DNA from: Candidatus Methanogranum gryphiswaldense
Lineage (GTDB): Archaea; Thermoplasmatota; Thermoplasmata; Methanomassiliicoccales; Methanomethylophilaceae
Assembly: GCA_019262145.1 (NCBI GenBank)
Contig: CP076745.1
Coordinates: forward strand, 1,299,093-1,363,092
DNA length: 64,000 bases
Direction of reading: 5' to 3'
In this document: positions 49,767 through 53,896 of the stretch, in pieces
How positions within the stretch are numbered: position 1 is the stretch's first letter
How the letters are laid out: each line of letters opens with the position of its first letter
Position numbers and translations under genes: made by a program
Notes under the pieces: generated by a model
Told to the model about the DNA's origin: nothing
The model's input: the letters and a program-made list of their open reading frames with translations, nothing else
Database searches by the model: none

Positions 49767-50759
49767 TCACTCCTTGATTGTCAAATCGCCGTCGAACCCA
49801 CGTTCGAGGTCGGCTGCTGTGCCCAGTAATCTCTCGGCATCCATATAGTTTTTCCATTTCTCGACGCATGGACATGTAACATCCAAATCTCTGATATTCT
49901 GAGAAAATGAGAACTTCTCGATGGCATCTAGCACATTCCTGTCGCACTCTCCACAGTTGTGAACTCCCCTCTGAGACCCCCCTCCCGAAGGTGATGACAT
50001 AAGACGAGCATTAACAGTGCCAGACAACGTTCTGAATACTTCTACTAGAGACCATATCCAAGGGGACCTGAACTCCCCTCTTCTCCACAATCTTTCAACG
50101 TATGTTCCACGCTGAACATTCAAAGGATTTATCGATATCTCATCAGAAAAAGGATCTGCAAACCTTGCAGACCTTACCACATCATCAATGGCCATTCTCT
50201 CGGTCATGAATGGAGGCTTCAATAGAAGGTACGTTCTAACAGTAAGGCCTGCATCCTTAATGGCCATTCCTGCTCTTCTGCTGTCCTCCTGTGTAAAACC
50301 CTTGTTTATTGAGATCCTCAACACATCTGGATCTGCACTTTCCATCCCCAAAGCAATGGTCATTGTTTTTGGCAAAACGGATAATGTTCCAGGAGTAATA
50401 AATTCCGGACGGCTTTCCACCAAGATGCGCTCACACCCGGAAAATTCATTTAAAATCCTATCTCTTACAGACCCAGGTATCTCTTTTTCATCAAGAAAAC
50501 TACCAGATGTATAAATTTTTACAAACGGTTCTCCTTTGTATTTAGAAACGGCTTGATCTATCTGTTTGTTTAGATCCTCAACTGTCACTTCCCGGACAGA
50601 TGCTTGCCTGTATCCGCACATCGTGCAACCGCCGGTCTTTGCCCAACAGCATCCGCTTGTACGCATGATCATTACCATCGCATCAACGACTTTTCCGTTA
50701 GAAAGATCCTTCTCTTTCCAAAGTGTCTCTAATTCTGACGGCAATCTTTTCTCCTTCAT
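49767..50759 (-). CDS. raSEA: Archaeosine biosynthesis radical-SAM protein RaSEA
   Basis: 330 residues. With ArcS it turns preQ0-lysine-tRNA into archaeosine at position 15 of archaeal tRNAs. Radical-SAM cysteines lie in SGCCWAKTGGCTMCGY (Cys37/38, 45, 48), the TIGR01210-type signature; the last third has HNCGECDRNV and TCPCVEKW cysteines. The ATG at 50759 follows GGAG by 8 nt; a GTG eight codons earlier lacks a site. ArcS is not in the window. Its operon partner is the DUF5611 gene. Confidence 0.9.
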   Translation of the reverse strand: MKEKRLPSELETLWKEKDLSNGKVVDAMVMIMRTSGCCWAKTGGCTMCGYRQASVREVTVEDLNKQIDQAVSKYKGEPFVKIYTSGSFLDEKEIPGSVRDRILNEFSGCERILVESRPEFITPGTLSVLPKTMTIALGMESADPDVLRISINKGFTQEDSRRAGMAIKDAGLTVRTYLLLKPPFMTERMAIDDVVRSARFADPFSDEISINPLNVQRGTYVERLWRRGEFRSPWIWSLVEVFRTLSGTVNARLMSSPSGGGSQRGVHNCGECDRNVLDAIEKFSFSQNIRDLDVTCPCVEKWKNYMDAERLLGTAADLERGFDGDLTIKE

Positions 50760-50875
50760 CTTGGTGACTCCGTCGTTCCACACGTATTTCTTGTAATTAA
50801 TCCTTCGCGGTTCGCGCCCGCGCTCATAAGAAACATTAATAACTGATGGTTTAATGGAGAACCAAGGTAAGCCAC

Positions 50876-52225
50876 ATGGCTAAAGAAATCATTATAATCG
50901 GTTCGGGAGCCGCTGGAATGACCGCTGCTTCCTCTGCCAGGGCAACAGATGCTTCAGCAAAGATTACAGTTTTTACAGAAGATGAGGATATCGCATATTC
51001 TCCCTGCATAATTCCTTGGGTCCTTGAAGGAAAATCAACATGGAAAAACGTCATTATGCACACACCAGAATTCTACAAGAAAGAAAAGAACATTGAGGTC
51101 TTTACAAAAACAAAAGTAGAATCTGTAGATGGCGATAATAAAACCCTCGTAGCAGCTGGAAAGACATACAAATACGATTCGCTTGTCATAGCCACTGGCG
51201 GTAAGGTATTCATTCCCCCTATACCTGGAGTGGACCTTGAAGGGGTCTTCATGGTAAGGACCATACAGGATGGGAAAAAGATCGAGGCCGCACTTAAGAA
51301 CTCGAAAAAAGTTGTTATCGGCGGTGCAGGTGTCATCGGACTTGAGATCGCCCTTTCGTTGGTCAATATTGGAAAAGAAGTTACCGTCATCGAAATGATG
51401 GACCAAGTAATACCTAGAATTGCCGATAAGGACATGGCTGACCCTATACAGGCCTACCTTGAAAGCAAAGGCGTTAAATTCATAATGAAAGCACCCATAC
51501 AGGCCGTTAATGGAACCATTAAGGTCTCAAGCATTACTGCCGCAGACAAGACCTATCCTTGCGACATGATCATATTTGCGACAGGCGTGCGCGCAAACGT
51601 CGATATCGCTAAACAACTCGGATTTGATCTTGGACAGCTCGGTGCCGTTGTTGTTGCACCCACATTGCAGCCTTACAGAAAAGGACGCCTTGTTCCTGAT
51701 ATATATGTTGCAGGGGATGTAATCCAATGTGAGTCTGCAATAATGCCTGGCCCTACAATGAGCCAGTTGGGATCGTCCGCTGTCAAAGAAGGAAGGGTGG
51801 CAGGTATCAATGCTGCAGGAAATAAAGCCCTTTTCGGCCCGGTAGCAAGCCCATGGGTCAGTGTCATAGGCGATAAACAGATAGCTGGAACAGGACTTTC
51901 TCTCGGACTTGCATCATGGTACGGCATTAGTGTAGTTGCAGGAAAAGCAACGGGAACAACCCGTGCAAGATACTACCCTGACGGAAAGGAACTGATTGTA
52001 AAGCTCCTTGCTGACAAGACCTCGCACAGGATCATAGGAGCGCAGATAATAGCAGGTGAAGAAGCCACCGGTCGTATCGACTGGCTCACATCTGTTGCGA
52101 TCGAGGGCGTAACCGCAGAAGATTTCCTTGTCCGTGCTGAAAATGCATACTGCCCACCAACATCGATGGTTCAAGATGTTGTTCTGAAAGCCGCAGAGGA
52201 CCTTTGCCACAAATTTAACCAGTGA
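50876..52225 (+). CDS. FAD-dependent pyridine nucleotide-disulfide oxidoreductase (CoA-disulfide reductase/NADH oxidase-like)
   Basis: 449 residues. FAD site IIIGSGAAGMTAASSAR, then YSPCIIP with the redox-active Cys44-type cysteine of CoA-disulfide reductases/NADH oxidases, the NAD site VVIGGAGVIGLEIALSL, and IYVAGDVIQ for the second FAD contact. It reduces a disulfide such as CoA-disulfide or polysulfide, or removes O2; which one cannot be told. Starts behind AAGGT. 6 nt before the CDIN1-like gene, so operon partners. Confidence 0.88.
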   Translation: MAKEIIIIGSGAAGMTAASSARATDASAKITVFTEDEDIAYSPCIIPWVLEGKSTWKNVIMHTPEFYKKEKNIEVFTKTKVESVDGDNKTLVAAGKTYKYDSLVIATGGKVFIPPIPGVDLEGVFMVRTIQDGKKIEAALKNSKKVVIGGAGVIGLEIALSLVNIGKEVTVIEMMDQVIPRIADKDMADPIQAYLESKGVKFIMKAPIQAVNGTIKVSSITAADKTYPCDMIIFATGVRANVDIAKQLGFDLGQLGAVVVAPTLQPYRKGRLVPDIYVAGDVIQCESAIMPGPTMSQLGSSAVKEGRVAGINAAGNKALFGPVASPWVSVIGDKQIAGTGLSLGLASWYGISVVAGKATGTTRARYYPDGKELIVKLLADKTSHRIIGAQIIAGEEATGRIDWLTSVAIEGVTAEDFLVRAENAYCPPTSMVQDVVLKAAEDLCHKFNQ

Positions 52226-52231
52226 GATACA

Positions 52232-53002
52232 ATGGATTTCAAGGAATATAAAAAACTCTATGACGGTCTCGTCATTACCGATGACATAGATAGGTTCATT
52301 GCCGAAGGCTATGACTCCAGACTTCTGGAGACGTTATATACCCAGAAGGTCAGTAGAAACGTTAAGAAACGTTTCCACATGGTAAAAAACAATTCCAAGA
52401 ACATGTTAAGGGACTGGAAAAAAGGACACAGTTTCCTGGAGATAGCGAACACCTACAAATTCCCTCCAATACTCATAATGATGATGATATTCCAAGAAGA
52501 TGGCGTATCAAAGAAAAAGTTTTGGGAGATCATCAGAGACCCAGATATTCTGGAATGCCCGGAAGCCGCAGAAGAAGTACGTGAGGCTGTGAAGAACGAT
52601 CTTGTGTATTCTCCGGATGCTAACGAGAAACAAAAGGAAAGAGGTCAATGGGGGGAGTGTTTACTTCAAGGGTGGCTAAACGACCAAGGTATAGAATATC
52701 TAACAGAAAATGACATACGCGATGTTGAAGGAAGCACAAAAACACCCGACTGCCTCCTCAAAGAACCGATGATGTATGAGGGCCATAAGATCTTCTGGGT
52801 CGAAAGCAAGGCTTCGTTCGGAGATAATGTAGAATTCAGGTTCAATTCCAGAAAACAACTTCTCCCATACACGCAGCTATTCGGGCCGGGAGTGGTCGTC
52901 TATTGGACTGGATGTCTCAACGATATGGAATGCCCATCCGACATTTATATCGAAGATATGGAAATACTAAAGAAGAAGTTGAAAAGGATCGAATGTGAGT
53001 GA
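52232..53002 (+). CDS. TPD-motif nuclease, archaeal CDIN1/C15orf41 homologue
   Basis: 256 residues. N-terminal helical region with helix-turn-helix-like segments (KGHSFLEIANTYKFPPILIMMMIF), then a PD-(D/E)xK nuclease domain: GQWGECLL (Glu142), the TPD motif at 171-173 and ESK (Glu191, Lys193) in FWVESKASF. This is the family of human CDIN1, a nuclease mutated in congenital dyserythropoietic anaemia type I; archaeal members are poorly studied. It probably cuts DNA with a divalent metal. Cotranscribed with a flavin disulfide reductase. Confidence 0.8.
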   Translation: MDFKEYKKLYDGLVITDDIDRFIAEGYDSRLLETLYTQKVSRNVKKRFHMVKNNSKNMLRDWKKGHSFLEIANTYKFPPILIMMMIFQEDGVSKKKFWEIIRDPDILECPEAAEEVREAVKNDLVYSPDANEKQKERGQWGECLLQGWLNDQGIEYLTENDIRDVEGSTKTPDCLLKEPMMYEGHKIFWVESKASFGDNVEFRFNSRKQLLPYTQLFGPGVVVYWTGCLNDMECPSDIYIEDMEILKKKLKRIECE

Positions 53003-53005
53003 TAC

Positions 53006-53896
53006 TCACTGTTCGATCCTTTCTTCCCTTAACTCTCCCATAAAGGCGGTCCTCTCTGCATATGCATTGTGCTTATGAATGGATTCCTCTGACTCACTCT
53101 TCACAAATACCTCTACATTGTCTGGAAGCTGTGGGTATTCGGATACCATATTTTTCAAGGTCATCCTTACAACATCTTCAACGAACCTTGGATTGCTGTG
53201 AGCATTGATAACAACCTGTCCCTCGTCATCTCTCTTCAACAGCTCATATGTTGGAGATGAGAATGATTTATGAACTAGATTTATCAGATCGTCGGCCTCT
53301 ACATTCACTTCCCTGTCCATTGTCAACAAAAGTGTACATATATTTCTCTGGTTGTGAGACATCACAGGATGCTCCGTACTGCAATTCAACATTTCGGTAA
53401 CAGTCTGTTGAGCACAAGGACACGCAGTCATACCTATTACTTCTACACCGATCGTCTTTCTTACATATTTTTCACGTGTTTCATGCGCCTTCGCAATGAG
53501 TTTGTAAATCTCGTAAGTCTCTTTTCCGAACGGGGTCTTGCTTTCACAAAAATACTCTGCAACGATATCAACATAGGCGTTCTGTGCATACTCATGATGA
53601 ACAAGAAGCTTATCGCACATGTCTGCCGCCATATTCTCAAGCCCAGTAACAGGCTTATCAATGCTATTTATGGCAACCTCTTTCAAAACCTCCACGTTTC
53701 TTGAAAGATGCGAACCTTTCTGCTCTGCGGGAAGGTCCACAAAAACATCAATAGAACAATTTAGTGCCCCATTTAACTTATTGTTTTTTCCTTCCCTTTT
53801 TACAAGTACTGGTTTCCTTACACCAGTAACTCCGACCTTAGTGAGTTTGAAACCGGTATCGCCTTTACCGTATTGAATATCGCATTTCAGAGCCAT
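53006..53896 (-). CDS. mptA: GTP cyclohydrolase MptA (FolE2 family)
   Basis: 296 residues. Converts GTP to dihydroneopterin cyclic phosphate, first step to tetrahydromethanopterin in methanogens, and the COG1469 enzymes can also feed archaeosine synthesis. MTACPCAQQT has the metal Cys; VTGVRKPVLV, the HHEYAQNAY segment and the ENMAAD segment match the family. A Fe2+ enzyme in archaea. Convergent with the CDIN1-like gene. Close to raSEA (2.2 kb), also an archaeosine gene. Confidence 0.94.
   Translation of the reverse strand: MALKCDIQYGKGDTGFKLTKVGVTGVRKPVLVKREGKNNKLNGALNCSIDVFVDLPAEQKGSHLSRNVEVLKEVAINSIDKPVTGLENMAADMCDKLLVHHEYAQNAYVDIVAEYFCESKTPFGKETYEIYKLIAKAHETREKYVRKTIGVEVIGMTACPCAQQTVTEMLNCSTEHPVMSHNQRNICTLLLTMDREVNVEADDLINLVHKSFSSPTYELLKRDDEGQVVINAHSNPRFVEDVVRMTLKNMVSEYPQLPDNVEVFVKSESEESIHKHNAYAERTAFMGELREERIEQ

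Follow-up and report, generated by a model that had tools for sequence, protein, structure and literature searches.

Human CDIN1 (C15orf41), which is mutated in congenital dyserythropoietic anaemia I, belongs to the Pfam family PF14811, and an arrangement of the type E...D...(D/E)xK...Q is the pattern of the PD-(D/E)XK nucleases. Two N-terminal HTH domains have been reported for the human protein, together with a resemblance of C15orf41 to Hjc (PMC7261414). Tests of human CDIN1, by itself or together with a codanin-1 fragment, covered plasmids, ssDNA, dsDNA, forks, flaps, Holliday junctions and RNA, and on none of these was nuclease activity detected (PMC7261414); such activity is still unpublished according to PMC13370696. 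Archaeal orthologues were reported in Euryarchaeota in 2020, with a human-archaeal sequence similarity of E = 1e-34, and codanin-1 was reported as eukaryotic (PMC7092493). In view of that report, it is not in itself new that archaea have relatives of CDIN1.

We analysed a stretch of 64,000 nt, hereafter the window, from Candidatus Methanogranum gryphiswaldense (GCA_019262145.1, CP076745.1 positions 1,299,093-1,363,092, forward strand), which contains a TPD (PF14811)/CDIN1-family gene directly downstream of a flavin-dependent disulfide reductase gene. Judged by its sequence, the gene is well preserved and belongs to the same nuclease family as CDIN1, the human anaemia gene. We argue below that the reductase, in which an initial annotation of this DNA had seen a hint of a redox-linked role, is a late-arrived and clade-specific neighbour, and that the more informative context of the family is a second gene, of Cas4/Dna2 type, that is found beside TPD in relatives of the window.

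The TPD protein and its predicted active site

The gene occupies 52232-53002 on the + strand and encodes a predicted PD-(D/E)XK nuclease of 256 aa, an assignment drawn from Pfam, AlphaFold2 and conservation. Its product matches the TPD profile with E 1e-42 and 145.7 bits (cut-off 27) over profile positions 3-136 of 138, so that membership of the CDIN1 family, given as homology in the initial annotation, holds across the full length of the profile and above its cut-off; the label "archaeal" is likewise borne out by its relatives, which are Methanomassiliicoccales. The open reading frame is genuine, with dN/dS values of 0.036 and 0.080 in two near-relative pairs from the window's clade (the one that lacks the Cas4-like gene described below), and we conclude from these pairs that purifying selection acts on the TPD family. 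Between the window TPD and its nearest relative, synonymous sites are saturated.

A scan of genomes for relatives returned, as its best 80 loci, sequences that are all close to the window TPD. The gene is found in 240 of 390 Thermoplasmatota genomes, among them 59 of the 61 genomes of Methanomassiliicoccales, and nearly all carriers have one copy. Methanosarcina acetivorans has a TPD gene as well. Searches of phages, plasmids and IMG/VR gave no match, so nothing obvious marks TPD as a mobile or defence gene, and we set that reading aside.

Conservation was assessed in alignments of 30 and then 124 distinct TPD relatives, which span one phylum and reach down to about 22% identity. Eight positions are without exception among the 124: E142 (codon 52655-52657, +), the first acidic residue of the predicted active site; T171, P172 and D173 (52742-52750, +), the TPD motif with the predicted catalytic aspartate; W189; K193; Q209 (52856-52858, +), a helix residue C-terminal to the (D/E)-x-K strand; and Y213. 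The (D/E)-x-K motif itself, E191-S-K193 in the window (52802-52810, +), has E at position 191 in 116 relatives and D in the other 8. The residues that the initial annotation had named as intact are therefore at the positions it gave, and E142, D173, E191 and K193 are kept in 124/124, with E or D at 191. Together with purifying selection, the retention of E142, TPD, [E/D]xK and Q209 supports an intact nuclease at the sequence level. A divergent and longer form of TPD, in frames of 345-400 aa, occurs at loci L062-L067 (families f34 and f42); it has about 22% identity to that of the window and D-x-K instead of E-x-K, and it adjoins a leucyl-tRNA synthetase, a pantoate-kinase-like gene and RNA polymerase subunit D.

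An AlphaFold2 model of the window TPD, built from 30 sequences and with secondary structure assigned by DSSP, has a mean pLDDT of 95.6. Its N-terminal region (residues 1-125; 52232-52606, +), entirely helical over residues 3-122, corresponds in position to the pair of HTH domains that human CDIN1 is reported to have and, searched alone, matches no Pfam or HTH profile. The core that follows consists of helix 128-151, strands 156-158, 174-182 and 185-193, helix 199-217 and strand 220-224; as modelled, it is an alpha-beta-beta-beta-alpha-beta core of PD-(D/E)XK type, with the TPD and E-x-K motifs borne on its strands and the active-site residues in place. A fold search of the PDB with this model gave no significant match (best E 0.02), and its weak matches include many proteins of the PD-(D/E)XK fold (the Rpb5 N-domain, DdmD, BbvCI, BamHI, AgeI, NucS and R2 endonuclease). 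By sequence, neither a solved TPD homologue nor a chain of CDIN1 itself was found in the PDB, the best profile match being TraH at a non-significant E of 0.077. Among the predicted viral proteins of BFVD, the model matches the giant-virus proteins A0A8F8SNR0, A0A167RJG3 and A0A2L2DJP4, namely an unnamed 303-aa protein, a Powai lake megavirus TPD protein and a mimivirus "CDAN1-interacting nuclease 1", with E 2e-15 to 2e-9 and TMq 0.55-0.86. The first of these (303 aa, TMq 0.86) spans the whole archaeal model, including the N-terminal half, which supports the same two-part architecture. We note in passing that giant viruses (a mimivirus and Powai lake megavirus) thus encode TPD/CDIN1-like proteins.

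The reductase and the Cas4/Dna2-like neighbour

Upstream of TPD, at 50876-52225 (+), lies a gene for a CoA-disulfide-reductase-like flavoprotein of 449 aa (Pyr_redox_2 3e-59; TIGR03385 4.8e-88, at 295.8 bits and hence below the curated cut-off of 578.8). The initial annotation had placed a disulfide reductase beside TPD, and it is indeed there, on the same strand and with a gap of 6 bp. Genes on the opposite strand flank the two, the divergent archaeosine radical SAM protein RaSEA (49767-50783, -; TIGR01210 9e-104) 92 bp upstream and the convergent GTP cyclohydrolase MptA (53006-53896, -; TIGR00294 1.8e-92) 3 bp downstream, which makes it likely that reductase and TPD form a bicistronic unit. 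MptA occupies the site at which relatives have the Cas4-like gene.

The comparison of gene neighbourhoods that had been suggested across archaea was run here within Thermoplasmatota, and there it finds the reductase link in one clade only (21/21 genomes). The reductase is present in 59 of the 61 Methanomassiliicoccales genomes, and it adjoins TPD on one strand in 20/20 genomes of the window's own family, f1, and in the single genome (1/1) of its sister family f55. In families f2, f3, f4 and f5 the two genes are never adjacent: where both lie on one contig they are mostly 29-41 kb apart on opposite strands, in G171 and G397 they share a strand at a distance of about 5-6 kb, and in the remaining genomes they lie on different contigs. 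The adjacency is a single change on a tree of the 124 TPD proteins, in a clade with support of 98, and we conclude that one rearrangement joined two separate blocks. The operon is therefore young and the reductase a late-arrived, clade-specific neighbour that says little about the function of TPD. In one f3 genome (L072, 16052-17683) a small protein that by eye resembles MoaD/ThiS is encoded directly after the reductase, next to a ribonucleotide-reductase-like gene, and these neighbours may be the truer functional context for the reductase.

The gene directly 3' of TPD in f2-f5 is usually a Cas4-like one, on the same strand and usually 0-120 bp away. The encoded protein is of 325-345 aa (PDDEXK_1 3.8e-12, Cas_Cas4 1.1e-8), with invariant Cys18, Cys315, Cys318 and Cys324 and an inserted hydrophobic helical stretch at residues ~60-190, and a fold search of the PDB with its model finds Cas4, MGME1, Dna2 and AdnAB nucleases at E 5e-7 to 1e-3; it is predicted to be a membrane-anchored DNA nuclease of Cas4/Dna2/MGME1 type. 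The same gene order is also present in f55 and in early f1, and outside Methanomassiliicoccales at L032, L047 and the Thermoplasmata/Euryarchaeota loci L117-L130, L135 and L139. Among the 124 distinct loci, the Cas4-like gene is directly downstream of TPD in 48; 39 have this neighbour only, 23 the reductase only, 9 both and 53 neither. The nine loci with both (L077, L105, L118, L127, L138, L141, L147, L156 and L163) form the basal branches of the reductase-linked clade on the TPD tree, from which we infer that the order reductase-TPD-Cas4-like came first and that the Cas4-like gene was then lost. In the window's genome and the other crown f1 members listed, no Cas4-like gene is matched at E 1e-10.

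The Cas4-like adjacency changes 7 times on the TPD tree. Each gene also occurs without the other, TPD in crown f1 and the Cas4-like gene in families f7 and f22, and the Cas4-like gene is hence not an obligate partner of TPD. Genomes of the latter kind are G034, G068 and G195 (f7) and G002, G023 and G234 (f22), with L172-L177 as examples; where the Cas4-like gene is not beside TPD, we saw no constant neighbour for it. When the neighbours in 60 loci were clustered for other conserved partners of TPD, only lineage-bound synteny emerged besides the Cas4-like gene. An isopentenyl phosphate kinase-like AA kinase, a RIO kinase, a Ras-like GTPase and the CCA enzyme were considered as partners and did not recur. 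Beyond the reductase and Cas4-like groups, the neighbours of TPD are mixed housekeeping genes, several of them tied to RNA. We find the Cas4/Dna2-like pairing to be a more informative context for TPD than the reductase, and it makes a role for TPD in nucleic-acid maintenance more plausible. In the open-access literature, where the pairing itself was not the subject of the search, we found no description of it.

Possible roles of the TPD protein

The reading that we prefer, and to which we give roughly even confidence as a whole, is that the window TPD is a single-copy, vertically inherited gene whose product, a predicted PD-(D/E)XK phosphodiesterase, is probably active as a structure-dependent nuclease with a role in genome maintenance. 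The helical, HTH-like N-terminal half of the protein would grip nucleic acid, in all likelihood DNA with branches or ends, while E142, D173, [E/D]191 and K193 would hold Mg2+/Mn2+ for the cutting of one phosphodiester, and this cleavage would be part of genome maintenance. In the ancestral arrangement, the gene for the membrane-anchored Cas4/Dna2-like nuclease came after TPD, and the window's clade lost it while keeping TPD; the reductase would be co-transcribed by an accident of the ancestral rearrangement, and the nuclease would work independently of it. The initial annotation had called the nuclease likely active, and conservation makes this reasonable, but the failure of human CDIN1 to display activity in the published tests (PMC7261414) is the main evidence against both that claim and the reading as a whole. 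The 53 of 124 loci with neither partner, set among mixed housekeeping genes, also count against it, as does the fact that TPD and the Cas4-like gene are not obligate partners. The same human results (PMC7261414; PMC13370696) would favour a catalytically silent, nucleic-acid-binding scaffold, as some suspect for human CDIN1; such a scaffold would not need the catalytic positions that are kept in 124/124 proteins across the phylum, and we think it very unlikely. That TPD is a nuclease for the processing of RNA and does not act on DNA seems to us unlikely as well, though not to the same degree. A CCA-adding enzyme (L036), a Mut7-C RNase (L038) and a wyosine enzyme (L052) are found among its neighbours, and a comparison has been drawn between the CNOT1 scaffold and codanin-1, the partner of human CDIN1 (PMC11911400); these RNA enzymes, however, do not recur across families, and the sole partner that does recur belongs with the DNA nucleases of Cas4/Dna2/MGME1 type.

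That partner also invites the more specific idea that TPD and the membrane nuclease form a two-nuclease unit, acting for example on DNA ends at the membrane, of which the window's clade keeps a reduced version. We regard this as a tentative possibility: the close same-strand order in f2-f5, in f55 and early f1 and outside the order speaks for it, as do the Cas4 Pfam match of the neighbour and its fold matches to Cas4, MGME1 and Dna2, but many genomes have either gene without the other, and the 7 changes of the adjacency on the tree also count against it. Slightly more doubtful is the stronger proposal that the two would make up an undescribed two-nuclease unit of Thermoplasmata, representing the ancestral context of the CDIN1 family and later dismantled in host-associated methanogens. 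As for a redox-linked enzyme, in which the reductase would control or repair the TPD nuclease or both would answer oxidative damage, the two-gene unit with its 6-bp gap and the adjacency kept in every f1 and f55 genome are what would recommend it. If the reductase acted on thiols, cysteines common to the linked TPD proteins would be expected; in the 124-sequence alignment, however, no cysteine is common to all of them, the positions vary, and the reductase-linked protein of L147 has none at all. One observation keeps the idea alive, namely that Cys228 (codon 52913-52915), a loop residue, is present in 18 of the 23 crown-clade proteins without a Cas4-like gene (the window and 17 relatives) and in 0 elsewhere, for which shared ancestry may be a simple alternative. 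With an adjacency that arose once and a separation of 5-41 kb, mostly on opposite strands, wherever it can be measured in the four other families, redox coupling through the reductase fails as a general explanation; the role that the initial annotation had read from the adjacency does not stand, and we consider a redox-linked enzyme highly improbable. The recurring Cas4/Dna2-like neighbour is a concrete candidate partner of TPD, which the reductase is not.

Comparison with described systems

The window reductase shares with the CoA-disulfide reductase family (TIGR03385) the Pyr_redox_2 fold and also Cys44, a conserved active-site cysteine of SPC type, but it differs from the models of that family in scoring far under their curated cut-off. 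The Cas4-like neighbour of TPD in relatives has, like Cas4, four conserved cysteines of Fe-S type; unlike Cas4, it carries the hydrophobic insert and sits outside a CRISPR locus. The archaeal Hjc/Hje resolvase is also an archaeal PD-(D/E)XK nuclease, as is predicted for the window TPD, and we would draw a distinction between them in that TPD proteins have an additional 125-residue helical N-terminal half; Hjc is absent from the best 50 of the 129 PDB fold matches to the TPD model.

With human CDIN1, the window TPD has in common the Pfam family and the order of a helical N-terminus followed by a PD-(D/E)XK domain, and D196, the residue of the human "nuclease-dead" mutant (PMC7261414), probably corresponds to D173 in the TPD motif of the window. 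In contrast to the human protein, the archaeal one would be expected to have neither codanin-1 nor ASF1 as a partner, and no erythroid role. Small, free of codanin-1 and endowed with all of the predicted catalytic residues, the archaeal TPD protein may hence be the simplest place in which to test whether this family cleaves nucleic acid, and on which substrate.
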